Below are positions 24,554 to 45,885 of a stretch of DNA of 64,000 nucleotides, piece after piece. How positions within the stretch are numbered: the stretch's first letter is position 1; each line of letters opens with the position of its first letter. The DNA comes from a bacterium (lineage in GTDB: Bacteria; Armatimonadota; Fimbriimonadia; Fimbriimonadales; Fimbriimonadaceae). The notes under the pieces are model-generated. The model searched no databases. It was not told the origin of the DNA and saw nothing but the letters and a program-made list of their open reading frames with translations. Where the stretch lies: NCBI GenBank assembly GCA_027485645.1, contig JAIXQR010000007.1, forward strand, positions 806,001 to 870,000, given 5' to 3'. Position numbers and translations under genes: made by a program.

Positions 24554-24891
24554 ATGTCGATGATCCAGACCTCTCGCAAAGCCGCGCAGTTCGAAGAATC
24601 GGTCATTCGAGAAATGACTCGGCTGTTCCTTGCGCGAGGTGATCGCCCCGGCGTGAACCTGGCCCAAGGGTTCCCCGACTTCCCCGCTCTGGCGGCGATG
24701 AAGGATGCCGCGTGCGAAGCTATTCAGGCTGACGTCAATCAGTACGCCATCACCTGGGGTGCCCCATCGCTCCGAAACGCGATTGCCGACAAGACCGAAC
24801 GCTGGTATGGCCATCGACCGGTTCCCAACCTGAAATCAGCGCGGCTTGCGGCGCAACGGAGGTGATGCACGCCGTGATGTATCCGGGTTAA
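24554..24891 (+). pseudogene. Remnant of a class I/II PLP aminotransferase
   Basis: The first about 92 residues (QTSRKAAQFEESVIREM, NLAQGFPDFPA, YAITWGAPSLRNAI) match the N-terminus of kynurenine or methionine aminotransferases (YbdL-like). After VPN at 24829 the reading continues in another frame as EISAACGATEVMHAVMYPG before a TAA at 24889. CGATE is the expected cofactor-region motif, so a single base has been lost near 24830. The remaining roughly 280 residues are absent. The gene is dead: frameshift plus 3' deletion right beside the toxin-antitoxin cluster. Confidence 0.85.
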
Positions 24892-24910
24892 GTCCCAGAA
24901 TTGGTGCGGT

Positions 24911-24938
24911 GGTAGAAAGAGTGCTGTAAACTTCTACC
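24911..24938 (+). promoter_or_regulatory. Operator/promoter of the orphan vapB (shared motif, copy 1)
   Basis: Inverted repeat GGTAGAA (24911-24917), 14-nt spacer, TTCTACC (24932-24938), ending exactly at the ATG. A -10-like TAAACT (24927-24932) lies in the spacer and 6 nt before the ATG. The identical arms and spacing recur before the next vapB. Confidence 0.75.
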
Positions 24939-25178
24939 ATGATTCTGAGCATCGAAGATCAGGGGGTCCACGCGCTGGCGACCAAGCTAGCGCGTGATAA
25001 CGGCAAAACCGTGAGCGACATCGTACGCGAAGCCCTGATGCTCTATCAAGAGCATCAAGAGAAACTGAGTCGCGCGAAAGTCATTGCCGAGCTTCGAGGG
25101 TCTGCCAAGGCCGGAGCGAATCCGAACTTCACAGACAACGACTTCCTGTACGACCCAATCTACGGCCTGCCGCAATAG
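24939..25178 (+). CDS. Orphan VapB-family antitoxin
   Basis: 79 aa. The N-terminal DNA-binding half (IEDQGVHALATKLARDNGKTVSDIVREAL) is of the Rv0623/PSK-like VapB type. The C-terminal toxin-binding tail ends in LYDPIYGLPQ, the family's YD-GLP ending. No PIN toxin follows: the next gene is another VapB 45 nt on. The start abuts the operator, so the mRNA is probably leaderless. It may be a solitary antitoxin left after toxin loss, or may neutralise or co-regulate the adjacent VapC. Confidence 0.87.
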   Translation: MILSIEDQGVHALATKLARDNGKTVSDIVREALMLYQEHQEKLSRAKVIAELRGSAKAGANPNFTDNDFLYDPIYGLPQ

Positions 25179-25194
25179 AAACGGATGCAGAGAA

Positions 25195-25222
25195 GGTAGA
25201 AACATTGGCGTATACTTCTACC
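25195..25222 (+). promoter_or_regulatory. Operator/promoter of vapBC (shared motif, copy 2)
   Basis: GGTAGAA (25195-25201), 14 nt, TTCTACC (25216-25222), touching the ATG at 25223. TATACT (25211-25216) is a good -10, again 6 nt before the start. Same architecture as copy 1. Confidence 0.8.
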
Positions 25223-25474
25223 ATGACCATGAATATCAAGGACGAAGAGGTTCATCGCCTTGCTCGTGAGCTTGCCGACCGAACCGGGCAAAGCATGACC
25301 CAGGTCGTGCGAGAGGCTCTGGCAGAGTACGACGCGAAGCTTAAAAATGCGGACAGTGAAGAACGGTTCGTCCGAGCGCTGCGAGCTCTAGAGGGATCCG
25401 GCGCAAAGTCTGGACTTACAAATCAGGAAGCAGACACCATGCTCTACGACTCTGAAACAGGAATGCCAATTTGA
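25223..25474 (+). CDS. vapB: VapB antitoxin
   Basis: 83 aa from MTMNIKDEEVHRLARELADRTG, the same family as the gene at 24939, ending LYDSETGMPI. It represses its own promoter and sequesters VapC in known systems. The stop (TGA at 25472) overlaps the TTG start of the toxin (TTGA), a typical coupled TA arrangement. The in-frame upstream codons to 25205 lie inside the operator, so ATG 25223 is preferred. Confidence 0.9.
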   Translation: MTMNIKDEEVHRLARELADRTGQSMTQVVREALAEYDAKLKNADSEERFVRALRALEGSGAKSGLTNQEADTMLYDSETGMPI

Positions 25475-25857
25475 TCGTTGACACGTCTGCGCTGATCTCA
25501 ATTACCACCGGCGAATCAGATGCCAGCCTTCTGAGATCGAAGTTAGAGCTTGCAAGGGTGAGGCAGATCGCCGCGCCGACCGTTCTTGAGACATACATAG
25601 TGCTTGATCGACGGAACCTCAAGGACTCGGCAGAGCTCGTCGACCTCCTGCTGGTCGAGCGACTAGAGGTGATCACGTTCGACCATGACCTCGCCTTGCT
25701 GGCCCGTGAAGCCTATCGGCAATTTGGCAAAGGAACCGGGCATCCCGCGCAGCTCAACTTTGGCGACTGCTTCAGCTACGCCCTGTCGAAGCGCACCGGC
25801 TATCCGCTACTTTGCGCAGGTAACGATTTTCGTCAGACGGACATTAGAATCGCTTAA
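25471..25857 (+). CDS. vapC: VapC toxin (PIN-domain ribonuclease)
   Basis: 128 aa, TTG start. PIN acidic residues: Asp4 in MIVDTSAL, Glu in VLETYIVLDRR, and Asp in NFGDCFSYALSK, with a further Asp near the end (GNDFRQTDI). VapC toxins usually cut tRNA or the sarcin-ricin loop; the target here cannot be told. Overlaps vapB by 4 nt. Confidence 0.92.
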   Translation: MIVDTSALISITTGESDASLLRSKLELARVRQIAAPTVLETYIVLDRRNLKDSAELVDLLLVERLEVITFDHDLALLAREAYRQFGKGTGHPAQLNFGDCFSYALSKRTGYPLLCAGNDFRQTDIRIA

Positions 25858-25883
25858 AGAACCTAAATGACCAGTTCTTGTGG

Positions 25884-25889
25884 TACTTT
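25884..25889 (+). promoter_or_regulatory. -10 element of a leaderless phd-type transcript
   Basis: TACTTT followed by 6 nt and the ATG at 25896. No Shine-Dalgarno. Confidence 0.5.
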
Positions 25890-25895
25890 AAAACA

Positions 25896-26246
25896 ATGGA
25901 GGTTTCCGCAACCGAGTTTAAGATCCACTGCCTCAATCTTTTAGATCGAGTCCAGGAGACTGGTCAGGTTCTGCGCATCACGAAGCGAGGCAAAGTTGTG
26001 GCAGAGTTACACCCTCCAAGCAACCCGGCACCGGCTGTTCCGGCTGGCTTTGGGCTACTGGCCTCCACCGGCAAAATCCACGGTGACATCATCTCCCCCA
26101 TCGAAGACGTCCCCTGGGAAAACCCGGCCGAGGTGTCTTCGGCCATGCAATACGGCCTCGAGACCACGCGCATAAACGCGCAGTTTGTCGCCGAAGAGAG
26201 CCGGGCCTTTGATGTCAGCCCAGAGCCTATACGAGACCAGAAATGA
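25896..26246 (+). CDS. Phd/YefM-family antitoxin
   Basis: 116 aa. MEVSATEFKIHCLNLLDRV and LRITKRGKVVAELHPP are the Phd/YefM DNA-binding fold. Residues from about 45 on are a Pro-rich linker and a toxin-binding region. It is longer than most (75-90 aa); the last 25 residues (ending EPIRDQK) are not typical. The TGA overlaps the ATG of the next gene (ATGA), so it pairs with the PIN toxin. Start ATG 25896 fits both the family N-terminus and the -10 spacing. Confidence 0.87.
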   Translation: MEVSATEFKIHCLNLLDRVQETGQVLRITKRGKVVAELHPPSNPAPAVPAGFGLLASTGKIHGDIISPIEDVPWENPAEVSSAMQYGLETTRINAQFVAEESRAFDVSPEPIRDQK

Positions 26247-26620
26247 TCGTTCTCGACACCCACATCCTGATTTGGTACGCCCTCGGCAGTCCGCAACTCT
26301 CCCCCTCGCGCTTGCAGCAGATCCAAGCTGCAAGCCCGAGGGTTTTTGTCTCGGCCATCACCCTTTGGGAAGTCGAGATGCTGCTGGAACGTGGTCGTGT
26401 CAGCGGCTTTAGCGTAAGTGATCTCCGCAAAGTCATCGCCGTTTCCGGATTTCAGGAAGCCGTTCTTTCTGGAGACATGGCAGTGCTAAGCCGACGCCTA
26501 GCCCTGCCCCATCACGACCCTGCCGACCGGTTCATTGCCGCAACTGCGATGACGATGCACGCGACGCTCGTCACCAACGACGTAAATCTACTCGGCCACA
26601 CGTGGTTGCCGACTATTTAG
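26243..26620 (+). CDS. PIN-domain toxin paired with the Phd-type antitoxin
   Basis: 125 aa. MIVLDTHILIWYALG carries the first catalytic Asp, SAITLWEVEMLLERG the Glu, and DPADRFIAATAMTMHATLVTNDVNLL the last Asp pair. This is the PIN subgroup (VapC/MazF-unrelated) that commonly partners Phd/YefM antitoxins. The start overlaps the antitoxin stop by 4 nt. Third antitoxin-type gene in 1.7 kb. Confidence 0.93.
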   Translation: MIVLDTHILIWYALGSPQLSPSRLQQIQAASPRVFVSAITLWEVEMLLERGRVSGFSVSDLRKVIAVSGFQEAVLSGDMAVLSRRLALPHHDPADRFIAATAMTMHATLVTNDVNLLGHTWLPTI

Positions 26621-31782: not shown

Positions 31783-34290
31783 TTACGGGTTGATCGTGTA
31801 CGAGCCCGAAACGGTGGTGCCGCTCGAGAGCGCCGAAACCGTTACAACCGTCGGCGAAACGACCTGCTTGCTGAAGACCTTCTCCGAGATTCGCTGGCTT
31901 CCCTGTGGAATCGTCAGCGTGATCGTGTTGGTTCCGTTCGAGAATCGAGCGGCGGTGGTTGGCGTGAGCGTCAGGACGACACTCTGTCCGGCCACGTCTT
32001 GGACGGGAGCATTCAACTCAACCGCAACGAAGTTGGTCTGCGTATCCGAAATGCTGTTGCGGCTAAACGAAACGCCGGTTGGGTCCGTGTAGAAGCCGAG
32101 CACGTTGATGAAGCCAGAGCTATCTGGATTGGTGTTCTGGAAGCCACCGGTCGAGACCTGCATCGAGAAGGAAGCGGTTTGCCCGACGACGACTGCGTTG
32201 TTCCACGTTCCGAAGAGCGCGATGCCGTAAGGCGTATCAATACCGGTATCCGTGACCACGCTGCCACCAAGAAGGCTGGCACCAATGAGGCCCATGCCGT
32301 TCGAGAATCGAGCGTGGAAGCCCTGAGTGTTGGTCGTCGCGGCGGCAGTTGCCGTCATGTTCGTTCCGCCCGCTGCATTAAGCGGCAGAAGCGCCGAGGT
32401 CGTAGTTCCAACAACTTGGACCGTTCCATTTGACTGGAGCGCGATGTCGGTTGGCTGGTCGTTACCAGCGTCTCCATAGTAAGTCATGATCGCCTGATTC
32501 AGGTCCTGGCTAAACGATGCCACGATGACATCATTACCGGCACTGTGCGTGCTGTCGAATCCGAATTTCACCGGAATGGTCGTACCGAAACCAGTCGAGT
32601 TGACCTCACCGGAGATCAGAGCAGTGATGTATGGTCGGTCGTTGACCATATCCATTTCCATGCCGCGGAAGGTGTCTGCGCCTGCAGAAGCACCGAATGC
32701 CGTGCTGAACTGAACGGCTGCCGTCTTCACAGCAAATCGCGCAAGGAAGAGGTCTCGGTTCGCACCGACTGCACCGTTGGTGAAGGTCAAATCGGCCGTC
32801 GACTGAACCTGTCCGCCCAGAACGAGGGTGTTGTATCCCTTTCCGAAATTGACGGTCTTGCCGGTATCCGTGGAACTTCCACCGAAGAAGGTGCCCATCT
32901 TGACCGTCGCAAGCGTCTTGTCAAGAACCAGTACGAATGCGTCGGCGGAAGTTCCGCTCTTCGTCGTATCTGCGCTTGACCCAGCGGTCAGCGGGCCTCG
33001 GGTGGCAACGGTGGCGGAGAAGTCGGCCGAGCCGTTCTGCATCGCAAGTGCCACTTCGCCGTTCGCTGGGTTAACGTCCATGTCCCAGATCCAGTCCGTA
33101 CCAGATCCACCGACGTAGGTCGAGAACATTCGGCTTCCGCCGTTTGCACGAAGTCGAAGAACGTATCCGTCGTTGCCGCCACCGTTTCCGGTCTGCACGC
33201 CGCCGGTTGCTGGCAAGTTCGTGCTGTTACCGTTCGCTGCGAACACGATGTCCTGGTTATCCAATACGCGGACCTTCATGCCTTGCGTACTTCCAGCCCA
33301 GCCGACTTCCGTGCCAGTGCCCGAAACATAAGTGCTGAAGACATCAACGTCGGTGAGGTCAGATCGCAAGTGCGAAATGAACCAGTCAGCGCCCGTGCTG
33401 TCGGTATTGTAAGGTCCGACGCTCGTTGGGAAGTCAGCACCTGCGGCCAATCCAGCAACGACAATCGCGCCGCTCGGCGAAACGTCAACTGCGCCAACTT
33501 CGTCAACGCCCGTTCCCCCGATGAAAGTACCGGAGAGGAAAATCTGAGGGTCGATCACAACCGGCTTGGTGGCGTCGTAGCCCGAAAGCTTGAAGCCAAC
33601 CTGGCCGTTGTTGATCGTGAACTTGGCCGAAACTTCCTTCTTGGCACCGTTCACCATCTGGTAAACGAAGAGGTTCTGTTCTCGAACCGTGCCAAGCGAG
33701 ATGTCGTACTGGAGCGAACCGTCAGCGCCCACGCGAAGGTTCTTGGCACCTTCGTAGTTCAGCTTGACCGACTCAGGCTTTGCGCCAGCCGAGAGAATAA
33801 CGTCATAGCGTGGTGCGCCGCCGTCGAGATAGTAGCGGGCGGTGACGCCAGGAAGAACGTTAACAAGCTTGGCTTCTTGGAACGATGCCGCTCCGTTGAA
33901 CTCCTGCCCTGCAACGATGAAGTTGGTTTGACTCTTCTTCTTCGAAACTCCGACTGGGACCACCGAGTTGGATGCGCCAACGAAGTTCACTCGAACGACG
34001 TCGCCGGTCGTCGAAATCTGCTTTCCGGTGATCTCTCCATCGACCTGAACGGTCTTCGAAATGTGCTTGTAATAGTCAATAACGGCACCGGAATCGGTGA
34101 CCCAAAGGTTTGCGCCTGGCGACTTCATCAAGAATCGAGCCGCGGAATTCCACTGGCCTTTGTTCTCGATGAATGCGCCTTGCGAAAGGGCAGTGTTGCC
34201 CATTGATGGACTGGCTGCGGAAGCAACCGTTGCAAGGACTAAAATTCCAATCATCAAGAAGGAGTATGCCGATGGATTTATCCACTTCAC
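31783..34290 (-). CDS. SBBP-repeat surface protein, copy 1 (DUF7948-type N-domain)
   Basis: 835 aa. Signal peptide (LMIGILVLATVASAA), N-domain with FIENKGQWNSAARFLMKSPG, then beta-propeller (SBBP) repeats with STYVSGTG/STYVGGSG-like strands, and a C-terminal Ig-like domain of about 95 aa. A GTG start at 34290 follows AAGGGTGAT. It is a tandem paralogue of the 829-aa gene at 34459-36948. The first about 60 residues and the leader are nearly identical at DNA level while the rest diverges. Likely secreted or surface-attached; ligand unknown. Confidence 0.87.
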   Translation of the reverse strand: MKWINPSAYSFLMIGILVLATVASAASPSMGNTALSQGAFIENKGQWNSAARFLMKSPGANLWVTDSGAVIDYYKHISKTVQVDGEITGKQISTTGDVVRVNFVGASNSVVPVGVSKKKSQTNFIVAGQEFNGAASFQEAKLVNVLPGVTARYYLDGGAPRYDVILSAGAKPESVKLNYEGAKNLRVGADGSLQYDISLGTVREQNLFVYQMVNGAKKEVSAKFTINNGQVGFKLSGYDATKPVVIDPQIFLSGTFIGGTGVDEVGAVDVSPSGAIVVAGLAAGADFPTSVGPYNTDSTGADWFISHLRSDLTDVDVFSTYVSGTGTEVGWAGSTQGMKVRVLDNQDIVFAANGNSTNLPATGGVQTGNGGGNDGYVLRLRANGGSRMFSTYVGGSGTDWIWDMDVNPANGEVALAMQNGSADFSATVATRGPLTAGSSADTTKSGTSADAFVLVLDKTLATVKMGTFFGGSSTDTGKTVNFGKGYNTLVLGGQVQSTADLTFTNGAVGANRDLFLARFAVKTAAVQFSTAFGASAGADTFRGMEMDMVNDRPYITALISGEVNSTGFGTTIPVKFGFDSTHSAGNDVIVASFSQDLNQAIMTYYGDAGNDQPTDIALQSNGTVQVVGTTTSALLPLNAAGGTNMTATAAATTNTQGFHARFSNGMGLIGASLLGGSVVTDTGIDTPYGIALFGTWNNAVVVGQTASFSMQVSTGGFQNTNPDSSGFINVLGFYTDPTGVSFSRNSISDTQTNFVAVELNAPVQDVAGQSVVLTLTPTTAARFSNGTNTITLTIPQGSQRISEKVFSKQVVSPTVVTVSALSSGTTVSGSYTINP

Positions 34291-34458: not shown

Positions 34459-36948
34459 TTAAGGGTTAATCGTGTACGAGCCCGAAACGGTGGTACCGCT
34501 CGAGAGCGCCGTGACCGTAACGAGGGTTGGGGAAACAACCTGGTTGCTGAAGATCTTCGCCGATACTCGCTGACTTCCTTGTGGGATGTTGAGAGTAATC
34601 GTAGCCGTGCCGTTAGAGAACCGAGCTGCTGTGGATGGCGAGAGCGTCAAGACGACGTTCTGGCCGGCTACATTTTGCACAGGTGCGTTGAGCTCGACCG
34701 CAACGAAGTTCGACTGGGTGTCGGAAATGCTGTTGCTGGTGAACGAAACGCCGGTTGGATCGGTGTAGAAAGCGAGGACGTTAACAAAGCCAGAGCTATC
34801 TGGGTTCGTGGACTGGTATCCGTTAGCCGAAACCTGGAGAGTTGGCGAAGCAGTCTGACCGACCACAACCGCGTTGTTCCAAGTGCCGAACAATGCGATG
34901 CCGTATGGCGTGTCCAATCCAGTGTCCCCAGCGTTGTTTCCGCCAAGAAGGCTGGCGCCGGTAAGTCGCATACCGTTCGAGAAGCGAGCGTGGAAGCCTT
35001 GAATGTTGCCGGACGAGGCGGCGATTGCCGTCATGTTCGTTCCACCCGCATTGTTGAGCGGGAGAGCTGCCGAAGCGGTCGTTCCAACGATCTGGACCGA
35101 ACCGTTTGACTGAAGAGCAATGGCGTTAGGCTCATCTGCGCCGGAACCACCGTAATACGTAGCGGTTGCCTGGTTCAGGTCTTGGCTGAATACTGCAACA
35201 AAGCCGTCGTTGCCAGTGTTAAACGTGCTATCCTCGCCGAACTGAACTGGAATCGTCGTTCCAAAGCCAGCGCTGTTTATGGTTCCAGCAACCATGGCCG
35301 TGAGATAAGGTCGGTCATTAACCTGGCTAACTACCAATCCTCGGAAAGTGTCGTTGCTTGAAGAGCCGAAAACGGTGCTGAACTGAACCGCTGCGTTCTT
35401 CACTGTAAATCGCGCCAAGAACAACTCACGGTTCGTGGTTGAACTAACGGAACCATTAGTGAACGTTAGACCAGTTGTCGAAGTGGTCTGTCCGCCGACA
35501 ACAACCGTGTTATAGCCGCGGCCAAAGCCAATCGTCTTAGCAGTATCCGTGTTGGCACCACCGAAGTAGGTTCCCATCTTCACCGTAGCTAGGTTCTTAG
35601 AAAGAACGCCAACGTAGGCTTCTGCGGAGGTCCCGTTTCGGGCACCGTCAGCGGAGGAGCCCGCAATGAGAGATCCTCGAACGCTGGCGATCGTGTTATC
35701 AAAGGCGGAGTTCGCCTGGACCGCAACTGCAACTTCGCCGTTGGCTCGGTTCACATCCATGTCCCAGAGCCAGTCCGTACTGGTTCCGCCAAGGTAGGTC
35801 GAGAACATTCGGCTACCACCATTCGCTCGAAGTCGAATGACATAACCGTCTGCGCCGCCCGCATTCGCGGTCTGAACGCCGCCCGTGGCCGGCAGGTTGG
35901 TGCTTTGGGTGTTCGTTGCAAAAACGATGTCTTGGTTGTCAAGAACGCGAACTTTCAGACCTTGAGTGGATCCCCAACCAAATTCTGCGGCACCACCCGA
36001 GATGTAGGTGCTAAAGGTAGCGATACCCGTCAGGTCAGCGCGAAGGTTTGTGATGAAGTTGTCGTTACCAACATCGTCACCGTCGTATGCGCCGCTCGTA
36101 GTTGGGAAGTCCGCGCCGGCGGCAAGGCCAGCAACAACGAACGTTCCGTTCGGGGACACATCAACCGAGCTGACTTCGTCGATGCCCGATCCGCCGAGGA
36201 ACGTGCCGGCGAGGAAGATCTGTGGGTCGATGACCACTGGCTTTGAGGCATCGTAACCAGCAAGCTTAAATCCAACTTCGCCGTTGCTGATGCTGAACTT
36301 GGCTGGAACTTCCTTCTTCTCACCGTTGATCATCTGGTAGACGAAGAGATTCTGCTCTCGAACGGTGCCGAGCGAGATGTCGTACTGCAGCGAGCCGTCT
36401 GCGCCAACGCGAAGGTTCTTCGCGCCTTCGTACTTCAGCTTGACCGATTCTGGCTTTGCGCCGGCAGCGAGGATAACGTCGTATCGTGGCGAGCCGCCAT
36501 CAACGTAGTATCGAGCCGTTACGCCTGGGAGAACGTTGACGAGCTTGGCTTCCTTGAAGGAGCCTGCACCGTTGACTTCGAGGCCTGGCTTGATGAAGTT
36601 GACGACATCAGCGTTCTTCGAAACACCGACCGGAACAACCGATTTGCTCGCGCCAACGAAGTTGACTCGAACAACATCGCCGCTTGCCTTGAGGTAGCGG
36701 CCAGTGGCTTCGTCGGTCAGTTGGACCGTGCGCGAGCTCAGCTTGTAGTAGTCAATAACGGCACCCGAATCGGTGACCCAAAGATTAGCGCCTGGCGACT
36801 TCATCAAGAATCGAGCCGCGGAATTCCACTGGCCTTTGTTCTCGATGAATGCGCCTTGCGAAAGGGCGGTGCTGCCCATTGATGGACTGGCTGCGGATGC
36901 AACCGTAGCAAGGACTAAAATTCCAATCATCGAAAGCAAGTATGTCAA
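34459..36948 (-). CDS. SBBP-repeat surface protein, copy 2 (DUF7948-type N-domain)
   Basis: 829 aa, the same domain layout as its neighbour: signal peptide, DUF7948-like N-domain, propeller repeats and C-terminal Ig-like domain ending SGSYTINP in both. The codon that is GTG (start) in copy 1 is GTC here (36966-36964). This copy must therefore begin at TTG 36948 or, more simply, at ATG 36930 (MIGILVL). ATG would give a short signal peptide lacking the basic N-part. The separate terminator suggests independent transcription. Function likely the same as copy 1. Confidence 0.85.
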   Translation of the reverse strand: MTYLLSMIGILVLATVASAASPSMGSTALSQGAFIENKGQWNSAARFLMKSPGANLWVTDSGAVIDYYKLSSRTVQLTDEATGRYLKASGDVVRVNFVGASKSVVPVGVSKNADVVNFIKPGLEVNGAGSFKEAKLVNVLPGVTARYYVDGGSPRYDVILAAGAKPESVKLKYEGAKNLRVGADGSLQYDISLGTVREQNLFVYQMINGEKKEVPAKFSISNGEVGFKLAGYDASKPVVIDPQIFLAGTFLGGSGIDEVSSVDVSPNGTFVVAGLAAGADFPTTSGAYDGDDVGNDNFITNLRADLTGIATFSTYISGGAAEFGWGSTQGLKVRVLDNQDIVFATNTQSTNLPATGGVQTANAGGADGYVIRLRANGGSRMFSTYLGGTSTDWLWDMDVNRANGEVAVAVQANSAFDNTIASVRGSLIAGSSADGARNGTSAEAYVGVLSKNLATVKMGTYFGGANTDTAKTIGFGRGYNTVVVGGQTTSTTGLTFTNGSVSSTTNRELFLARFTVKNAAVQFSTVFGSSSNDTFRGLVVSQVNDRPYLTAMVAGTINSAGFGTTIPVQFGEDSTFNTGNDGFVAVFSQDLNQATATYYGGSGADEPNAIALQSNGSVQIVGTTASAALPLNNAGGTNMTAIAASSGNIQGFHARFSNGMRLTGASLLGGNNAGDTGLDTPYGIALFGTWNNAVVVGQTASPTLQVSANGYQSTNPDSSGFVNVLAFYTDPTGVSFTSNSISDTQSNFVAVELNAPVQNVAGQNVVLTLSPSTAARFSNGTATITLNIPQGSQRVSAKIFSNQVVSPTLVTVTALSSGTTVSGSYTINP

Positions 36949-37164: not shown

Positions 37165-38415
37165 ATGGAAACGCTCAAGATCTCCCCCACGCGGTTGTCC
37201 GGAACAGTTGAAGTCTCTGGGGCAAAGAACAGTGCCCTCAAGTTGCTCGTGGCAACGCTGCTCTCTTCCGACCCGATTCGAATTGAGAATCACCCCAACG
37301 GGCTTCTGGACATCCAGATTCAAGCCGACATGCTGAAGGCCGTCGGCAAGGAATACGTGATGGAGAACAATGCCATCACCGTAACTGAGCCCGGCGATCT
37401 GAACACCACCCTCAACTGGGAACCGGAAAAGTCCATTCGCAACACGCTGCTCATGCTCGGCGCGATGGTTTCCCGCTTTGGCCACGCCCGCGTGCCGTAC
37501 CCAGGCGGTTGCAAGCTCGGTGAGCGCAAGTGGGATCTCCACGAGCAGCTTCTCACCCAGATGGGTGCTCGAATTTGGACCGAAGGCGACATCATCTGCG
37601 CCGAAGCTCCTAACGGCCTCACCGGCACCGATATTCATCTCTCCTTCCGCTCTACCGGTGCAACTGACAACGCCATCCTTGCTAGCGTTCTTGCCAAGGG
37701 AACCACGCGAATCTTCAACCCGCACGTTCGTCCTGAGTGCCTGCGCCTCATCCGCATGCTCAACAAAATGGGCGCTCAGATCGAGGTCCACTCGCAGGAG
37801 CGCGTGGATGTTCACGGCGTAGAGCGACTTCGAGGAACCACCGAGACTTCCCTTGCCGACAATGTCGAAGCTCTCACGTGGCTCGTTGGCGCGGTCATCA
37901 CGGACGGCGATGTTGAAATCCGAAACTTCCCCTTCGAGGACCTCGAAGTGCCCCTCATCTTCCTACGCGACAGCGGTGCCAAGTTCTTTGTGAACGGCGA
38001 CAGCATGATCGTTCGTGGCGGACGCCCTCACCCGGTCGACATCTGCACGGGCCCTTACCCCGGCATCAACTCAGACATGCAGCCACTCTTCGGCGCATTT
38101 GGAGCTTTCGCGAACGGTGAGACCCGAATCATCGACTTGCGCTTCCACGGCCGGTACGGCTATGCGGACGAATTCGCAAAGATGGGCGTCCAGAGCAAGG
38201 TTGAAGACGCCTACCTCAAGATCATGGGCGGCAGCAAGATTCATGGAGCCGACGTCACGGCGATTGACCTTCGAGCTGGCGCGGCATTGATGCTTTGTGC
38301 ACTCGCCGCCGAAGGCGAAACGACGATCCACAAGGCCTGGATGATCACCCGCGGCTACGAGAACGTCGCCGAGAAGTTGGCCGGCCTCGGCGCAACCGTT
38401 CAGATCGGCGACTAA
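37165..38415 (+). CDS. murA: UDP-N-acetylglucosamine 1-carboxyvinyltransferase
   Basis: 416 aa. Transfers enolpyruvate from PEP to UDP-GlcNAc in the first committed step of peptidoglycan synthesis. Lys/Asn of GAKNSALK (19-26), catalytic loop PGGCKLGERK with Cys116 (fosfomycin target Cys), and HGRYGYADEF near the C-terminus. GAGGTGAT lies upstream of the ATG. The stop overlaps that of the convergent acyltransferase by 4 nt. PEP supplied by ppdK could feed it, but that is only metabolic context. Confidence 0.96.
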   Translation: METLKISPTRLSGTVEVSGAKNSALKLLVATLLSSDPIRIENHPNGLLDIQIQADMLKAVGKEYVMENNAITVTEPGDLNTTLNWEPEKSIRNTLLMLGAMVSRFGHARVPYPGGCKLGERKWDLHEQLLTQMGARIWTEGDIICAEAPNGLTGTDIHLSFRSTGATDNAILASVLAKGTTRIFNPHVRPECLRLIRMLNKMGAQIEVHSQERVDVHGVERLRGTTETSLADNVEALTWLVGAVITDGDVEIRNFPFEDLEVPLIFLRDSGAKFFVNGDSMIVRGGRPHPVDICTGPYPGINSDMQPLFGAFGAFANGETRIIDLRFHGRYGYADEFAKMGVQSKVEDAYLKIMGGSKIHGADVTAIDLRAGAALMLCALAAEGETTIHKAWMITRGYENVAEKLAGLGATVQIGD

Positions 38416-38966
38416 GCCTTCGGAGCCTTCATTTGAGCAGGAATCCCGACGGCGATGTAGCCGTCGGGAACATCCTTTAGAACGACTGCATTGGCACCAA
38501 CCTTCGCGCCTTTGCCAACTCGAACGTTGCCGATGATTTTCGCGCCGGCATAGATGGCGACGCCTTCGCAGATGACCGGATAAGCGTCTTCCTCCGTCCC
38601 AGAGCCCAAGTGACCTAGGGTCACGTTCTGCAGGATGGTCACGTTATCCTCGATTGTCACGCCCTGTCCGATGATAATCCCCGTAGGGTGCGGCAACAGC
38701 ACGCCACGACCGATGATCGCGCGAGGGGACACTTCACAGCCGCACAGTCGGTACTGGCGCATCCGCAAGTAAGGCAGAAACATTTTCATGCCCTTCACAC
38801 CGGAAAGGAACCGTGCAACGCGATAGAGGAATAGCAGCCGAAAGCGGACGCTTGTCCAGATGGTCAAGAACCAGAGCTTCGGCCGTCGTCGACTGTCTAC
38901 TGCGATATCCGCTTTGACGTCTGCCTTGAACTGACCAAAACCGTACTTTGCCATCGCACGCATCAT
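38412..38966 (-). CDS. Hexapeptide-repeat acyltransferase (serine acetyltransferase-like)
   Basis: 184 aa. Left-handed beta-helix repeats run from about residue 78 (AIIGRGVLLPHPTGIIIGQG, IEDNVTILQNVTLG, CEGVAIYAGAKIIGNVRVG, AKVGANAVVLKDVP). The N-terminal 75 residues are hydrophobic and basic (LWFLTIWTSVRFRLLFLYRV). Similar to CysE-like O-acetyltransferases found in polysaccharide clusters; serine or a sugar may be the acceptor. Last of four minus-strand genes; the gap to the esterase gene is 18 nt. The second ATG at 38954 may be the start. Confidence 0.82.
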   Translation of the reverse strand: MMRAMAKYGFGQFKADVKADIAVDSRRRPKLWFLTIWTSVRFRLLFLYRVARFLSGVKGMKMFLPYLRMRQYRLCGCEVSPRAIIGRGVLLPHPTGIIIGQGVTIEDNVTILQNVTLGHLGSGTEEDAYPVICEGVAIYAGAKIIGNVRVGKGAKVGANAVVLKDVPDGYIAVGIPAQMKAPKA

Positions 38967-38984
38967 ACCGAAGACCCGTGATCC

Positions 38985-40364
38985 TTAACGATCCCAGATT
39001 GGTAGCGGCTTGTCGGAACGGAACGGCGCAGCCGGATTGCCGGCCCCATTGAACAGGTTTCCGACGTAAGCATCGGCCCAACCGTACCGAACGTGAACCG
39101 GCTTTTGCACGAGGTCGTTCCAAACCGTCACGGCCCCGCGCTCAATGATGGCCTGCGCTGGTCTCCAAACCCCATCGTCGCCGGCGATTTCGAAGGCCGT
39201 CAGGGCGGTGGCGGTCGAAGTCAAACCTCCGTTGTCATGCTTGTAATAGACCCGCAGCTTGTTCCCTTCCCGAGCGTGGCTCATGTAGAGCGGGCTCGCT
39301 CCCACCACGCCGGATCGTTTGTACGTCGCGCCGAGTGCATATCGGAGAAGGCGGTTTGCGACGCCCTGCTTGTTCACGGGATGGATGTCGTTCAGATCAT
39401 CCACCAAATCGGACACGACGACCATGCCGGTGTTCCCGAGGGTCAGCGAGTTCTCTTGGCCTTCCCGAGAGACCGGCGCACCGCCCTTTCGCGCTCCCGA
39501 ATAGTTGTAAGTCGGCAGTTGTACAAAGTACGCCGGCATTGCGCCTTGGTTCCAACTTAGCCTTAGGGTCGTGAGCCACGTTCTCCAGATCCGCCCAAAC
39601 TCATTCGGACGAGAGACATTCCCTTCCCCGGTCCAAATGATCACACCATCTACCGGAAAATCCGTCATTGGTGCGATCATGCCGTTGTAGTACGTAGTCG
39701 TCGGCAAAACGCTGGATCCCGACTCCGCAAAGGCCGAGTTAGGCATCCATTCCTCAATCGTCGTTCCTCCCTTAACCGCGGCGATCATGCCAACCGGTTT
39801 GGCGAGTTCGATCGATAGGTCTCGCCCGAAGAAATAGCCAACCCCAGAAAAGCTCGGAACGGTTTGGCTCGTACAGACTTCCCAAGTTCCAGCGATAGAA
39901 GCTGCCGGTTCTGCTGCCTTTGTCCGCGCTAATCGGAGCAAACGAAGGTTTGGATAGTTCGCGTTGGCAATCTCTTGTTCGGCGTTCAAGATCGAGCGTA
40001 GGCCCGGCGTAGCCGCCAAGGTGTGCTCCATATTGCTCTGGCCGATACAGACCCAAACGGCACCCGCCGCAACATTAGAAAGTGCAATTCGGTTCGTCCC
40101 AACCACCTCAATACTCAGGCCGGTTGTGCAGTTAGGCGTCAGTACGGTGGTACGCCACTTCCCGCTCTCATCGACCGTTGCCCCGGCCACCGCTCCCCAA
40201 CTGCCCATGATGACCAAGGACTCGCCGGGAGTTCCGGTGCCCCAAATCGGCATGACGGCCTTATCCGGAATCACCATGTTCGATTGGAACATCGCGTTCA
40301 ATCGAACTTCGGCCGAACCGACGCAAACAAGACCCAGCAATCCGAGAGCAACAAAACAACGCAC
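38985..40364 (-). CDS. Sialate O-acetylesterase-like SGNH esterase
   Basis: 459 aa with signal peptide (LGLLGLVCVGSA). Nucleophile in IGQSNMEHTL. The block after it, normally a WYQGE-type motif, reads IIWTGEGN here. The catalytic Asp/His pair is in LNDIHPVNKQG. Removes O-acetyl groups from sugars, outside the cytoplasm. Paired with an acyltransferase gene in the same operon, so an acetylated surface glycan or an acetylated extracellular substrate is likely. Confidence 0.87.
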   Translation of the reverse strand: MRCFVALGLLGLVCVGSAEVRLNAMFQSNMVIPDKAVMPIWGTGTPGESLVIMGSWGAVAGATVDESGKWRTTVLTPNCTTGLSIEVVGTNRIALSNVAAGAVWVCIGQSNMEHTLAATPGLRSILNAEQEIANANYPNLRLLRLARTKAAEPAASIAGTWEVCTSQTVPSFSGVGYFFGRDLSIELAKPVGMIAAVKGGTTIEEWMPNSAFAESGSSVLPTTTYYNGMIAPMTDFPVDGVIIWTGEGNVSRPNEFGRIWRTWLTTLRLSWNQGAMPAYFVQLPTYNYSGARKGGAPVSREGQENSLTLGNTGMVVVSDLVDDLNDIHPVNKQGVANRLLRYALGATYKRSGVVGASPLYMSHAREGNKLRVYYKHDNGGLTSTATALTAFEIAGDDGVWRPAQAIIERGAVTVWNDLVQKPVHVRYGWADAYVGNLFNGAGNPAAPFRSDKPLPIWDR

Positions 40365-40392
40365 AACTTATTTTGACGTGCGTATCTCCGTT

Positions 40393-41760
40393 TCAGATGG
40401 GGCGAATTCGGTTTTGTGCTCCGAGGATATCGGGGCGCACGTCGCGATGCTTTCGATACCAGATCGTTGACTGCGGTGCCACCGAGCGACAGAACGTACT
40501 TCCGCTGTCGTAGCTGATCCCGAGCGCCCAACCTTGACTTGCATCGGACGCCCCCTGGCCGATGCGGAGGTCAACAGAAGTGGAGCCGGTAGCTCCGGAT
40601 TGCCCGATCGTGGAGCCGAACAACAACAGCGAGCTGTTTCCGGTCGCCGTGACATTTGGACCAAAGTTTGAGCGGTAGATTCCGTTGACAACGATGCCGG
40701 TTGTGGCGTCAAACGCTGCGATGCCCGAGTTCTCGGTCCCTCCCGAGATGCCGTTCGACACGGCAACGTTAGCGACGTCCATGTACTTCACCCCGCGCCG
40801 GTAATCGAACCCATCGTCTCGATTTCCGACGGACCAACTAAAGAATGAACTGACTTGCCCCGGGCCAGACACGGCGAGACCGTCCCCGGAAGCAGCGTAT
40901 TTGAACCAACAATCAACGAAAGTAAGCTGGGAGTCTTCGGTCAGCGTCGCCGTGAACGCGTTTGGGCCGCCGAGAAAAATGCATTTCCGCAGCCAGATCT
41001 TTCCGCCCTGAACAACGCCGTTTGTTGTGCCCGCGAACAACAACAATTGACCATCAGGAGCCGAACCATTCAGGCGATTCACCCAAACTCGTTTCGATTC
41101 GGCGTAGAACGATCCCGGCGTTCCTCTCACCGCAGAAACGCTGGCCACCCGAACGAGTTTCGAGCCTGCCCCATAAAGATCGCTCAATGCTTCATCAACG
41201 ACCTGTGCCGTCGTTGTGGAAGTCACCGAGGTGAAGATTCCGTCGTCTGGCTGCCAGCTCAAGTTGTCCATCTGGGAACTGCTGATGACATATCCAGTTT
41301 CGTCCCAAGGTTCAATCACGATGTTTCCGACCGGAGACGCACCACCCCAAGAGGTTCGAAAGTCGAACACACCCGGGCGACAAAGGATCCACTTATTCCC
41401 GGGACGGGAGAGCGCAAACGACAATTTTCGAAATGCAGAAAGTTTGGTCGTGCCCGGATTTTGATCGCTTCCAGTGAGCGGATCAACGTAATAGAGCGTG
41501 AAATTGTGGGCATCCGCTGGGCGAAGACTGATCGGATTAAGATCGGTTGTGAAGGCACCCGAGCCGGTTTCAAAAACCTTGAAGTCACCCCAAAATCCGG
41601 TCCAGTTTGGCGGAGCCAAGTACGTCGTGCGTGTCGAAACTCCCTTCGGCTCGTACAACAAATCCGCGATCGCCTTTGTCAAAACGGTATTCGGATCGTA
41701 CTGAGCACCCGCCGACGCCGAAGCAACGATCGCCACAAAAATAACAAACTTGCGCATCAT
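40393..41760 (-). CDS. Secreted right-handed beta-helix protein, copy 2
   Basis: 455 aa from MMRKFVIFVAIVASASAGAQ, a clear signal peptide. The open frame to 41895 crosses the upstream gene and is not a likely start. Early YYVDPLTGSDQNPGT (a Pectate_lyase_3/DUF1565-like entry strand), then WILCRPGVFDF and NRDDGFDYRRG, characteristic of parallel beta-helix polysaccharide-active or tail-fibre-like proteins. Its ATG overlaps the TGA of the paralogue upstream (ATGA). Ends in IRPI like its partner. No catalytic triad identified. Confidence 0.8.
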   Translation of the reverse strand: MMRKFVIFVAIVASASAGAQYDPNTVLTKAIADLLYEPKGVSTRTTYLAPPNWTGFWGDFKVFETGSGAFTTDLNPISLRPADAHNFTLYYVDPLTGSDQNPGTTKLSAFRKLSFALSRPGNKWILCRPGVFDFRTSWGGASPVGNIVIEPWDETGYVISSSQMDNLSWQPDDGIFTSVTSTTTAQVVDEALSDLYGAGSKLVRVASVSAVRGTPGSFYAESKRVWVNRLNGSAPDGQLLLFAGTTNGVVQGGKIWLRKCIFLGGPNAFTATLTEDSQLTFVDCWFKYAASGDGLAVSGPGQVSSFFSWSVGNRDDGFDYRRGVKYMDVANVAVSNGISGGTENSGIAAFDATTGIVVNGIYRSNFGPNVTATGNSSLLLFGSTIGQSGATGSTSVDLRIGQGASDASQGWALGISYDSGSTFCRSVAPQSTIWYRKHRDVRPDILGAQNRIRPI

Positions 41761-43154
41761 ATGGGCCGAATCGTTCCTAGTGTTTCGGTCAAGTCGATAG
41801 CATCGGAAACGTGGTTCCGGTACCAAATTTTCGAAGCCGACGAAGTGGATCGGGCAATGGGCGACCCGTGCAAGTAACGAATTCCGAGTGCCCAAATCTC
41901 CGATCTGTCTGGCGTTCCGGTGGTACTAGCCCCAGAGCAAATGTCCGCATTTGACGCTTCGATCCCGCGAGATTGACCGACGGTTGCTCCCAGCAGCAAA
42001 CGCTTACTATCAAAAACGTCGTGAATGTTCCGGCCCTTGTTTTGCGTGTACAAGCCCCCAACCGTGATTCCAACCGAGCCGAAGTGCGCCGTGGTCCCGT
42101 TGTCCAGATACAAGTTGCCAAGTCCATTGCTTACACCCGCGCAATCAACCTCAACGAACTGCCTCCCGTGCCGGTAGTCAAATCCGTCACTGTGATTACC
42201 GGTTGCCACGCATCGAACGGCAATCGACATCCCCGGCCCCTCCATTGCGAATCCATCCGAATCGGTTAACGAGTACTGGAACTTGCAATCAACAAACGCC
42301 ACCGTCTGTCCCGGCACCAGCGCCGTACTCTGAAACGGCTTAAAGCCACCTTTAAAGATGAAATTTTTTACGAACAGGGTGCCGTTTGAATCGAATCGCC
42401 CGTTCGACTGGTTGCAGAACACCAGCAGGCTCTCCGTAGGGCTCAAGCCATCTCTGGTTCGAAGGGTCAATTGCTTTCCAGAAACGTGAAAACTGCCCGG
42501 AACCTCGAACACATCATCGCGGGAGTCCAATTCCCGAAATCGAACGCCATTCCCCCAACTGTCCAAGGTGGTCTCATCCACGACTTCATGGGGGTAGGTA
42601 CTGCATCGCGCCGTGTAGACGCCGTTTCCAACCGAAGACCAGTTGATGTTCGAGATCTGGGCTGAACTGATAACGGGTCCAGAGTCATCCCACGGCATGA
42701 TGACGACGTTTCCGGTGGGCCCATACCCACGCCAACTCGTTAGGAAGTCAAAAACACCTGGCCGGCACAGAATTCGCTTGTTGCCCGGCATCGAGAGCGC
42801 CTTGGAAATCGTACGGAAAGCACGGTCTTTGCCAGAGCCGCTTTTTGAATCGGCGCCGAACTGCGGGTCCACATAATAAACCGGGTACGCGTCATAACCC
42901 GGCGGCAGTAGAACACTTTCTCCGAGGTCGGCAAAGTACTTGCCTTCTGGATTCTCAAAAATCTGAAATGCGGGAGCAAAGCCTGGCCAATTTCGCGGCA
43001 GCGCAAAATTCATCCACTGAGTGGTCAAACGGGTGGGATACAGGCTATCTGCCTGCGCCTTCGTCAGTGGAGACTGTCCCGAGCCACTTGCGGCTAGCAG
43101 GCAGCAAGCAACAATCGGCATTGCGCAGACAAGTCTTGTGAAGCCCTTTCGCAT
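41757..43154 (-). CDS. Secreted right-handed beta-helix protein, copy 1
   Basis: 465 aa if starting at ATG 43154 (MRKGFTRLVCAMPIVACCLLA, a good signal peptide). ATG 43166 and TTG 43175 are alternatives. Shares with the next gene YYVDPQFGADS, PGNKRILCRPGVFDFLTSW, HSDGFDYRHG and the ending IRPI, so they are tandem paralogues. The first gene of the operon that continues with its paralogue, the acetylesterase and the acyltransferase. Confidence 0.8.
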   Translation of the reverse strand: MRKGFTRLVCAMPIVACCLLAASGSGQSPLTKAQADSLYPTRLTTQWMNFALPRNWPGFAPAFQIFENPEGKYFADLGESVLLPPGYDAYPVYYVDPQFGADSKSGSGKDRAFRTISKALSMPGNKRILCRPGVFDFLTSWRGYGPTGNVVIMPWDDSGPVISSAQISNINWSSVGNGVYTARCSTYPHEVVDETTLDSWGNGVRFRELDSRDDVFEVPGSFHVSGKQLTLRTRDGLSPTESLLVFCNQSNGRFDSNGTLFVKNFIFKGGFKPFQSTALVPGQTVAFVDCKFQYSLTDSDGFAMEGPGMSIAVRCVATGNHSDGFDYRHGRQFVEVDCAGVSNGLGNLYLDNGTTAHFGSVGITVGGLYTQNKGRNIHDVFDSKRLLLGATVGQSRGIEASNADICSGASTTGTPDRSEIWALGIRYLHGSPIARSTSSASKIWYRNHVSDAIDLTETLGTIRPI

Positions 43155-43338
43155 TTCTAAAAGCATGTTTTGCAAACTGCAGACAAATCCTATGAAATGG
43201 CTAAATTAGAGCCAAAGAGGTGCAATGCGCATATAACCTGTAAAGTAAGTACGACTCAGGCCCCCAATTCGACGCACGTTTTCGTCCTGAACGCAAACCT
43301 TAACAATGAAAACCTGGGCCTTTCGGTAGTCCGCTTGC

Positions 43339-43344
43339 TAGACT
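43339..43344 (+). promoter_or_regulatory. -10 element of a leaderless transcript
   Basis: TAGACT with 6 nt to the GTG at 43351; no Shine-Dalgarno. Confidence 0.5.
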
Positions 43345-43350
43345 TGCATC

Positions 43351-45885
43351 GTGCAATCGAATCGTCTCCGTAGCGTCAGCATGTTGGCCCTGGCAATCGT
43401 CGGCATCAGCACCGGCCTCGCCCTCACATTCCAGTCGATCAACAAAGTTGGCGATCTCACCGGAAAGGGGATCCTCGTCAATACCGGACAGTGGATCAAG
43501 CCAGACGGCCAGCTCTCCGTCTTTGCCGACCGACCGGTCGATGTTCAACTGACCGCAAACGGAAAGACCGCCTACGTTAAGGAATCGAACGGACTCACCA
43601 TCATCGACGTTCCGACCGGAAAGATCCTTCAACGACTGAAGATCACCGGGGCCTCTTCTCACACTGGCCTCGCCCTTTCGACCGACGAGTCGAAGCTGTA
43701 CTACAGCAATGCCAACAACGGCATCATCGAAATTAACGTGGCCGCGACGCCTGCCACGGTCGCACGCACCATTACGATGCCGCGACCATCCGTCGGCGGC
43801 GCACCATACCCTTGTGACCTCGTCCTGCACGGCGGAAAGCTGTACGCCGCCCTCAGCCGATCTAACCAAGTTGCCGAGATCAACCTGGAATCTGGCAAGG
43901 TCGAACGAACGATTGACGTTGCCCCCGCACCATTCGGACTGGCGGTCGACTCCGAAACGAACACTCTTTGGGTTTCGAGTTGGGGACGCACACCTCAAGC
44001 CGGGCAGCAAAAATCAAACGCATCCGGCACCCCGGTAGCGGTAGACCGACGCGGAATCGCGACCGGCGGAACCGTTTCGCAAATCTCGCTAGCAAGCGGA
44101 AAGGTTGCCAAGGCCGTCGAGGTCGGCCGCCAGCCATGCGAATTGGTCGTGCGCGACGGCCAGATCTACGTTGCTGTGGCAAACGACGATGAAGTCATCG
44201 CAATCAATGCGAATTCTGGCAAGTGGGTCCCGCTCTGGAAGTCAACCGTCGGGGCCGCTCCTTCCGCGCTCACGGCCCTTCCCAACGGCCAAATGGCCGT
44301 CGCTTGCGGCGGAAGCAACGAAGTCATTGTTCTCTCCGCCGGTGAATTTGCGCCGGTCGAAACCTACCGATCCGGTTGGTACCCAACCGCCGTCCGTGCG
44401 TTCGAGAACAACCTCGTCGTCGTGAGCGCCAAGGGGCTTGGCGGCCGACGAAACGAGCTTCGCAATGGCAAATTTGACTCCTTTGCCGTCACCGAAAAAC
44501 TCGGCACTCCGCTCTCGGTAGCCGACGAAAAGTCCCGCGGCGTCTATCAATTCACCGGCACTCTGAGCGTGATCCCTCGAACCGAGACCACCCTTAAGCC
44601 AGAGACCGTAGCTGCCGTCCTACCGGCTCGCAAGAACATCGCTCCAAAGCCCGTACCAGAGCGGCCCGGCGAACCAAGCGTTTTCAAGCACGTGATCTAC
44701 GTTCTGAAAGAGAACCGAACGTATGACCAGGTATTCGGCGACATCCCCGGTGCCGATGGCGATCCAAGCCTCTGCATTTATGGCGATGACGTCACGCCAA
44801 ACCACCACGCCCTCGCGAAGGAATTTGTCCTCCTGGACAACTACTACTGCAACGGCGTCCTCAGTGCCGATGGTCACTCGTGGAGCACCGAAGGCAATGC
44901 CACGACGTACTTCGAGCGATCCTTCGGCGGCTGGACCCGTAGCTACCCGTTCGGCGACGATCCACTAGCAATCTCGTCCACCGGACACATCTGGGATGCC
45001 GTGCTGGATAAGGGGCTGACCTTCCGAAACTACGGCGAGTACGACTACGCTGCCCCAAGCAAAGGCGAGAATCACACGGCAGTTCTGAAGGACTTCCAAT
45101 CCGGGGCGCGCAAGGTCAAATTCAGCCACAAGATCGAAATTGAGCGGCTCAAAAAGTACAGCCACCCCGAATGTCCGGGCTGGAACATGGAAATCCCCGA
45201 CATCGTCCGCGCGAGCTACTTCCTGAAGGATCTCAAAACGGCCGAACAAACCGGGAAGCTTCCGAACTTCAACTTCGTCTACCTTCCGCAAGACCACACG
45301 TCTGGCACCGGCGCGGGCGCACCGGCCCCAACCGCCCACATGGCGGATAACGACCTTGCCCTCGGCCAAATCGTCGACGCCGTCAGCAAATCGAAGTTCT
45401 GGAAGAACACCGTCATCTTCGTGATCGAAGACGACCCTCAGGCTGGCTTCGACCACGTGGACGGACATCGATCAATCTGCCTGGTCGTGAGCCCATACAC
45501 TCGCCGGGGCGCGGTTGTGTCGAAGTTCTACAACCAAGGCGCCGTCCTCAAGACGGTTCGTCACGTCCTCGGCCTAAAGCCGGCGACCCGGTTTGAGATT
45601 CAGGCGAACCTGATGTCGGATTGTTTCCAAGCCAAGCCAAACCTGAAGCCGTTTAACGTTCGCCCGAACCGCGTGGCTCTCGATCTGATGAACCCGAGCC
45701 GCAGCACATTCCGAAAGCTGGACATGACGCGACCAGACACGGTGGATGAGAACGAGTTCAATCGGCAACTCTGGGCGGCTGCGAAAGGTAACGTTCCCTA
45801 TCCGGCTAGTCTCGCCGGAGCCCACGGAACCGGCCTAGCGGCAAAAGGGCTCAAGATCGATCAGAACGTGACCGAACAAGACTAG
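43351..45885 (+). CDS. YncE-like propeller fused to an alkaline-phosphatase-superfamily phosphoesterase
   Basis: 844 aa with GTG start and a signal-like N-terminus. Residues about 40-410 are a YncE/YVTN-type propeller (SNANNGIIEIN, AALSRSNQVAEINL). From about 445 a phosphoesterase domain begins: HVIYVLKENRTYDQVFGDIPG, DGHSWSTEGN, MADNDLALGQIVDAVSKSKF and VIEDDPQAGFDHVDGHRS, with metal ligands like those of phospholipase C/acid phosphatase AcpA. A known fused family (bifunctional YncE/alkaline phosphatase family). Substrate unknown. Only 24 nt upstream of hrcA. Confidence 0.88.
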   Translation: MQSNRLRSVSMLALAIVGISTGLALTFQSINKVGDLTGKGILVNTGQWIKPDGQLSVFADRPVDVQLTANGKTAYVKESNGLTIIDVPTGKILQRLKITGASSHTGLALSTDESKLYYSNANNGIIEINVAATPATVARTITMPRPSVGGAPYPCDLVLHGGKLYAALSRSNQVAEINLESGKVERTIDVAPAPFGLAVDSETNTLWVSSWGRTPQAGQQKSNASGTPVAVDRRGIATGGTVSQISLASGKVAKAVEVGRQPCELVVRDGQIYVAVANDDEVIAINANSGKWVPLWKSTVGAAPSALTALPNGQMAVACGGSNEVIVLSAGEFAPVETYRSGWYPTAVRAFENNLVVVSAKGLGGRRNELRNGKFDSFAVTEKLGTPLSVADEKSRGVYQFTGTLSVIPRTETTLKPETVAAVLPARKNIAPKPVPERPGEPSVFKHVIYVLKENRTYDQVFGDIPGADGDPSLCIYGDDVTPNHHALAKEFVLLDNYYCNGVLSADGHSWSTEGNATTYFERSFGGWTRSYPFGDDPLAISSTGHIWDAVLDKGLTFRNYGEYDYAAPSKGENHTAVLKDFQSGARKVKFSHKIEIERLKKYSHPECPGWNMEIPDIVRASYFLKDLKTAEQTGKLPNFNFVYLPQDHTSGTGAGAPAPTAHMADNDLALGQIVDAVSKSKFWKNTVIFVIEDDPQAGFDHVDGHRSICLVVSPYTRRGAVVSKFYNQGAVLKTVRHVLGLKPATRFEIQANLMSDCFQAKPNLKPFNVRPNRVALDLMNPSRSTFRKLDMTRPDTVDENEFNRQLWAAAKGNVPYPASLAGAHGTGLAAKGLKIDQNVTEQD

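Follow-up and report, generated by a model that had tools for sequence, protein, structure and literature searches.

The closest described counterparts of the locus reported here come from several separate systems. In Vibrio cholerae, RbmB is described as a beta-helix lyase that is encoded in the biofilm cluster and cuts a partly O-acetylated polymer of the cell itself (PMC11637428). VpsC and VpsG of the same bacterium, which are related to serine acetyltransferases, are thought to acetylate its exopolysaccharide (PMC3901696), and deletion of vpsC is reported to have no effect on the biofilm (PMC4432689). Among glycoside hydrolases with comparable folds, BT_1002 is assigned to family GH141, with D523 and D564 essential (PMC10154630; PMC12786026), and XylC to family GH120 (PMC6887791). 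In carbohydrate esterase family 20 (CE20), GQSNM and DxH are given as blocks I and V, and members without the ancillary domain are noted (PMC12313940). Here we describe a four-gene operon in a 64,000-nucleotide stretch of DNA (the window, G000:C1:806001-870000) of a Fimbriimonadaceae bacterium, whose 3.19-Mb genome (G000) is called the source genome below. The operon encodes two paralogous beta-helix proteins (BH1 and BH2), a carbohydrate esterase (EST) and a hexapeptide acyltransferase (HEX). We give an even chance to the reading that it remodels the cell's own acetylated exopolysaccharide by de-acetylation and trimming. The genes are as follows.

41757-43154, minus strand: BH1, 465 residues; predicted beta-helix of a phage tail-fibre family, with the conserved site kept (PHROG 16653, E = 1.8e-41)
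40393-41760, minus strand: BH2, 455 residues; paralogue of BH1 with the conserved site erased (PHROG 16653, E = 1.2e-28)
41757-41760, minus strand: ATGA overlap between the BH1 stop and the BH2 start
38985-40364, minus strand: EST, 459 residues, GTG start; predicted CE20-type carbohydrate esterase without the inserted ancillary domain (Pfam SASA, E = 4.1e-13)
38412-38966, minus strand: HEX, 184 residues; hexapeptide acyltransferase of CysE/EpsC-like type, DRHP being replaced by DAYP (Pfam Hexapep, E = 1.9e-12)

The four genes are read from 43154 to 38412 in the order BH1, BH2, EST, HEX, with gaps of 28 bases between BH2 and EST and 18 bases between EST and HEX. An initial annotation, made from the DNA letters, had proposed this operon. 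Its open reading frames, the ATGA coupling, the spacing and the four-gene make-up were all confirmed, as were the esterase and hexapeptide assignments. The motifs that it had noted as common to the two beta-helix proteins are also present: GFDYR, held within DGFDYR at residue 323 of BH1 and 316 of BH2; PGVFDF at 132 and 129; and an IRPI end in both. The N-termini of BH1, BH2 and EST, judged by eye, resemble signal peptides.

What kind of proteins are BH1 and BH2? They are 39% identical over 459 residues (E = 1.3e-98), and because the best of 1000 shuffled BH2 sequences matched BH1 only at E = 2.9, this likeness is beyond chance. In a Pfam search BH1 had no match and BH2 just one insignificant match (E = 0.057); DUF1565 was weakly matched by three of 15 aligned family members (best E = 2.2e-4). 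The phage profiles, at the level of sequence, firmly place both proteins in a family of phage tail-fibre beta-helices. PHROG 16653, annotated as 'hydrolase', is matched by BH1 over profile positions 78-471 of 482 and by BH2 over positions 70-414. The tail-fibre profile PHROG 32409 is matched at E = 1.6e-20 (BH1) and 2.3e-21 (BH2), and PHROG 30606 is also matched. Searches of a phage collection with tblastn gave 46 records for each protein, those for BH1 including Microcystis phage Mae-Yong1326-1 (2e-28), Shewanella phage SppYZU01 (6e-22) and Klebsiella phage Henu1 (2e-21). Of the seven phages viewed first, all have the domain as the C-terminal part of a longer protein, and six have an annotated tail, baseplate, holin or terminase gene no more than three genes away. 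Fibres of PHROG 16653 and 32409, such as Henu1 gp43, the Staphylococcus phage 37 tail fibre and that of the Microcystis phage, share a domain of about 300-400 residues with BH1 and BH2. Two viral scans with protein queries found no relative, and a motif scan returned 19 stretches, 11 of them with the domain; sequence searches of the Protein Data Bank with three profiles found no full-domain match.

We built a maximum-likelihood tree of 22 rows, which was midpoint-rooted, left out the Moabite row and included ten rows fetched by a DNA motif encoding N352, T355 and H357. In this tree the BH1 and BH2 proteins of the source genome and of a sister genome (G014) form one clade (100/99) that lies beside the Microcystis phage (95/99); the BH2 stem is long (1.14) and the BH1 stem short (0.30). 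With this rooting and this set of rows, the tree can do no more than suggest the direction of transfer. Unlike the phage fibres, BH1 and BH2 are encoded on a host chromosome as a tandem duplicate, with the site erased in BH2, in an operon with EST and HEX, and a signal-peptide-like N-terminus replaces the N-terminal part of the fibre. Because the flanks are of host type in two genomes and the signal-like N-terminus is short, we regard the two proteins as homologues of tail fibres and not as tail fibres.

The two copies differ most clearly at a site that is conserved in the family, which lies in the following stretches.

42018-42188, minus strand: site stretch of BH1, residues 323-379, with D323, Y327, E335, N352, T355, H357 and D379
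40645-40815, minus strand: equivalent stretch of BH2, residues 316-372, with D and Y kept and the other five changed (E→D, N→S, T→A, H→F, D→A)

Conservation was counted in 14 phage rows chosen by homology alone (seven stretches were added by homology), a set that replaces an earlier one biased by motif. D323, N352, T355 and H357 (BH1 numbering) each occur in 11 of these rows, the three rows without the quartet being related Moabitevirus fibres, and the quartet is complete in all four plasmid relatives that we found. BH1 and its orthologue in the sister genome have all four residues, and BH2 and its orthologue only one. Y327, E335 and D379 are found in 12 of the 14 phage rows, phages HM1 and Malisha being those that differ, and are absent from the plasmid rows; BH1 has all three and BH2 only the tyrosine. 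Over the seven positions together, BH1 has seven and BH2 two. As far as textbook motifs go, the initial annotation was right to see no known catalytic signature in either beta-helix; this view has to be amended in that BH1 keeps the quartet of its family and BH2 has lost three of the four. In this way, candidate active-site residues can be proposed for a family of tail fibres not represented in Pfam. The Moabitevirus fibres that have lost the quartet (L090 2179-4245, L130 1679-3745 and L133 1778-3838) each lie directly behind another tail gene, annotated as a tail fibre, a bifunctional tail protein or a pectin lyase.

Structure prediction backs the beta-helix fold that had been proposed for both proteins. 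The models reached a mean predicted local distance difference test score (pLDDT) of 85.5 and a predicted template modelling score (pTM) of 0.85 for BH1, and 85.0 and 0.84 for BH2. In the BH1 model, six of the seven site residues lie inside strands 325-328, 354-356 and 377-379 or at most two positions from them, and E335 is in another strand. The three strands should be the first strands of three successive coils, with the site on one face of the modelled helix. On a second look at the structural alignments, BT_1002 (Z = 27.6, 349 residues, 2.7 Å) and XylC (Z = 20.9, 338 residues, 2.3 Å) gave the longest alignments with BH1, at an identity of only about 14%; the other 48 rows, which span 233-284 residues, include pectate and alginate lyases, alginate epimerases and phage tailspikes. 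Among predicted viral structures, the best matches to BH1 had template modelling scores of 0.66-0.79 (ranks 1-7). RbmB shares the general right-handed beta-helix fold with BH1 (Z = 22.5, 256 residues, 2.5 Å), and by analogy it may serve as a precedent for how BH1 could work on a self polymer, although the RbmB gene lies inside its biofilm cluster and the BH1 gene outside any such cluster.

EST looks like a CE20-type enzyme and is predicted from its sequence to be a de-O-acetylase. It has GQSNM at residue 108, DIHP (the DxH motif) at residue 326 and both SGNH halves, all in common with the CE20 esterases XacXaeA and Fl8CE20_II. Its alignments with 9ega, 9h4u and 7kmm cover both halves, with roughly 185-200 intervening residues missing; it differs from XacXaeA and Fl8CE20_II in this lack of the ancillary domain, and from known members of the family in its gene neighbours.

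The nearest profiles to HEX are those of CysE and EpsC, and it scores under both cut-offs (126.9 bits against 210.65 for TIGR01172 and 132 against 150 for NF041874). In all five serine acetyltransferase alignments displayed, DAYP of HEX faces DRHP, a stretch with a role in serine binding. Because of this replacement, an acceptor other than serine is likely; we rejected the reading of HEX as an ordinary serine acetyltransferase. It shares the hexapeptide type with CysE, EpsC and VpsC-type transferases, from which the low scores and the DRHP-to-DAYP change set it apart. HEX also matches PHROG 2154 (E = 7.5e-22). In the phage collection, 34 records matched HEX, 13 of them labelled 'Bacteriophage sp.', and 11 matched EST, all so labelled; apart from a transferase of Staphylococcus phage IME1323_01, described below, these matches were set aside. 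Some of the records listed for these two proteins look bacterial (Salmonella, more than 0.5 Mb) and can mislead counts of phage homology.

How widely is the set conserved? The initial annotation had named conserved co-occurrence in relatives as a check, and this was borne out, though narrowly: the sister genome, one of the 19 congeners searched, has the complete set in unchanged order and with the same flanking genes. BH1 was matched at E <= 1e-3 in three of 61 genomes, its own included, the third match (in G004) covering 73 residues of a longer beta-helix-like protein of another kind. A profile made from four sequences (A1) detected the pair at E <= 1e-10 in two of 113 genomes of the class, and the phrog_16653 profile at E <= 1e-6 in eight of 291 genomes of the phylum, six of these eight being partial-domain matches (1.7e-8 to 6.7e-7). 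A scan of public genome contigs for relatives of the locus returned one locus, on a contig of the sister genome. HEX and EST each have some match in 28 of 41 genomes; HEX is 95% identical in the sister genome and 43% over 136 residues in the next best by E-value, and EST 77%, then 44% over 438 residues. As a system, the operon is of narrow distribution and unproven.

Amino-acid identity between the two genomes falls from 99% for the product of the adjacent gene MurA2, described below, to 95% for HEX, 77% for EST and BH2 and 64% for BH1, the lowest of 12 protein pairs compared; seven proteins of an exopolysaccharide cluster are 90-96% identical. Because a neighbouring SBBP-like protein also reaches just 77%, the fast change of BH1 is unremarkable by itself. 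Synonymous sites are near saturation between the two genomes, and we therefore dropped the ratio of nonsynonymous to synonymous substitution (dN/dS) and claim no selection.

A possible link to exopolysaccharide comes from the gene that meets the operon at its 3' end.

37165-38415, plus strand: MurA2, a second gene resembling those for UDP-GlcNAc enolpyruvyltransferase; it lies outside the operon, in convergent orientation to HEX

The 3' ends of MurA2 and HEX overlap by four bases. MurA2 is 36% identical to the other MurA copy of the source genome; at 366.3 bits it is under the TIGR01072 equivalog cut-off (392.7), and it passes the subfamily model NF006873 (387.3 over 297). Outside the sister genome, its nearest relative (60% identity) is in a third genome, G011, inside a cluster with Wzz, flippase, glycosyltransferase, export and acyltransferase genes (L073, G011:C11:60000-78000). 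A homologous cluster is present in the source genome (L117, G000:C3:98000-117000) and in the sister genome, on contigs other than that of the operon. In G011 the murA paralogue stands between a glycosyltransferase gene and a second Wzz-like gene; in the source and sister genomes the counterparts of those two genes (the Wzz-like one assigned by BLAST, with no Pfam match) adjoin, with no murA between them. From this comparison of gene order, MurA2 has probably changed place, and we assign no direction to the move. MurA2 (E <= 1e-100) and the cluster glycosyltransferase (E <= 1e-60) mark the same three of 41 genomes, at thresholds of our own choosing. In the source genome, the link of the operon to the exopolysaccharide cluster is through MurA2 only. 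If the link is real, one may ask why such a cluster should be accompanied by a second MurA.

The second link is provided by plasmids. Relatives of BH1 were found in four of 72,556 plasmid records, from Roseivivax and Sulfitobacter, with the quartet kept and beside exopolysaccharide clusters: flippase and acyltransferase genes adjoin them in all four, and annotated glycosyltransferases are in the stretch in three of the four. They differ from the BH pair in being single copies, about 25% identical, with EST not seen in the stretches viewed. BH2 had one weak partial plasmid match (Rhizobium etli, E = 0.06). The initial annotation had suggested a system that adds acetyl groups to, or removes them from, an extracellular glycan. 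On the motifs of EST and the type of HEX, this is still the best reading, now with a more definite substrate. The neighbouring MurA2 gene and the plasmid relatives of BH1 both suggest that the bacterium's own exopolysaccharide is the most likely glycan.

We therefore consider the following mechanism. In the cytoplasm, HEX would O-acetylate the glycan or a precursor of it, and outside the cell EST would strip acetyl groups. BH1 might bind and cut, or otherwise alter, the exposed chain, and BH2, as a site-erased twin, might hold the glycan without cutting it. The polymer would probably be made by the Wzz/flippase-type cluster that the source genome has on contig C3; in G011 a cluster of this type contains the MurA2 relative. 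We infer secretion, all catalysis, the substrate and the joint action of the four proteins. This remodelling is backed by the gene order kept in a second species, by the tail-fibre family of the pair and by a site that is kept in one copy and lost in the other in both species, with fold predictions of equal quality; the CE20 motifs of EST, the CysE/EpsC-like type of HEX without DRHP and the two links to exopolysaccharide also speak for it. A literature search combining right-handed beta-helix, exopolysaccharide, acetyltransferase and acetylesterase returned no paper. The remark of the initial annotation that it knew of no described system with this set holds within the searches made; the beta-helices themselves do have a known family, that of the phage tail fibres.

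Several observations weigh against self-polymer remodelling. In both the source and sister genomes, the four genes are outside the exopolysaccharide cluster and on another contig, and G011 has the cluster and the MurA2 relative, yet lacks the BH pair as well as a close HEX or EST. The co-occurrence of MurA2 with the cluster glycosyltransferase is uncorrected for kinship. The four plasmid clusters belong to related Roseobacteraceae and are not independent, and of their matches, which range from E = 5e-9 to 8e-3, two are weak (2e-3 and 8e-3). Seven loci with the next-best EST relatives have neither a HEX nor a BH match alongside. BH1 itself differs from most phage rows at H328, where it has R, as does the Microcystis phage, and at D358, where it has F. 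Finally, the literature examined did not establish enzymatic activity for any protein of this tail-fibre family.

The last point leads to the alternative that both beta-helices are binders and not enzymes. They would serve as adhesins or as matrix proteins that bind a glycan, and EST and HEX would adjust the acetylation by which it is recognised. We think this doubtful, though it deserves serious attention. BH2 has lost the site, yet its frame is intact in two species, and the Moabitevirus fibres imply that site-less binders exist in the family. What such a role would not lead one to expect is that BH1 keeps the quartet in both species even though it is the least conserved of the 12 proteins compared; its longest structural alignments, moreover, are with the glycoside hydrolases BT_1002 and XylC, a shared fold that shows no function. 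The likeness to hydrolases also bears on a further alternative, in which the operon degrades an environmental polysaccharide for food and EST and BH1 are secreted scavenging enzymes. CE20 enzymes are reported from plant polysaccharide utilisation (PMC12313940), and enzymes for pectin and xylan are among the members of GH141 and GH120, the families nearest in fold (PMC10154630; PMC6887791). However, scavenging does not account for an acyltransferase of intracellular type in the operon, for the adjacent MurA2 gene or for the flippase genes next to the plasmid relatives, and no sugar transporter was noted among the nearby open reading frames, most of them read by eye; we consider it unlikely.

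The phage ancestry of the pair invites two other explanations. The operon might guard against phages, acetylation and trimming of the surface polymer, or shed fibre-like proteins, hiding the receptor, with parts taken from a lysogenic-conversion cassette. This would agree with the tail-fibre family, with the Microcystis phage as nearest branch, with the PHROG 2154 match of HEX and with the temperate Staphylococcus phage IME1323_01. In that phage a fibre of the family is followed by a holin, an amidase and, about 1.9 kb on and beside attP, a 'serine acetyltransferase' of 138 residues that is 38% identical to HEX over 113 residues and is likewise without DRHP.

L129 3724-5936 and L134 1976-2392: IME1323_01 stretches with the tail fibre and the CysE-like transferase gene

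An origin of the BH and HEX genes in a phage receptor-modification cassette fits these sequences. However, IME1323_01 was the only such case in 14 phage neighbourhoods viewed, two of them unannotated, and CysE-like transferases are common; we regard phage defence as quite unlikely. A prophage remnant without present function would account for two genes homologous to tail fibres, and we hold it to be very improbable: host genes lie on both sides, no other phage gene was noticed, signal-peptide-like N-termini replace the long N-terminal parts of the phage proteins, and the frames are intact in two species. We set it aside. The CysE-like gene beside attP in IME1323_01 is, as an observation on that phage, a possible lysogenic-conversion gene.

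Returning to remodelling of the cell's own exopolysaccharide, we tentatively propose, as possible although short of probable, a history in which this lineage domesticated the tip of a tail fibre, from a family with which phages meet polymers of the cell surface. The tip would have gained a secretion signal, been duplicated into a site-keeping and a site-erased copy, and been combined with an acetyltransferase and a de-acetylase, which perhaps stem from a phage cassette of the same kind, as IME1323_01 hints, into a module for the cell's own exopolysaccharide beside a murA paralogue that had left the cluster. If true, this would be a testable case of a phage polymer-recognition domain serving a bacterium, with the site-erased twin as a built-in control.

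Upstream of the operon lies its presumed promoter region.

43155-43350, no strand: divergent intergenic stretch of 196 bases

No sigma-70-like site was found in this stretch; a promoter scan gave no promoter-like sites and four terminator-like sites, fewer than in shuffles.

Other features of the window include two tandem genes for secreted-looking proteins (31783-34290 and 34459-36948) that are 76% identical, the second with a DUF7948 domain; one copy was seen in another stretch (L006), whose end may cut off a second. At 24554-26620, an aminotransferase-like gene looks broken, its N-terminal fragment (103 residues) running into several genes that by eye resemble toxin-antitoxin genes (PIN and antitoxin type). 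The flank of the operon opposite MurA2 is a divergent gene (43351-45885) encoding a fusion of a beta-propeller and a phosphoesterase, which has eight matches in the source genome and up to 11 in congeners.

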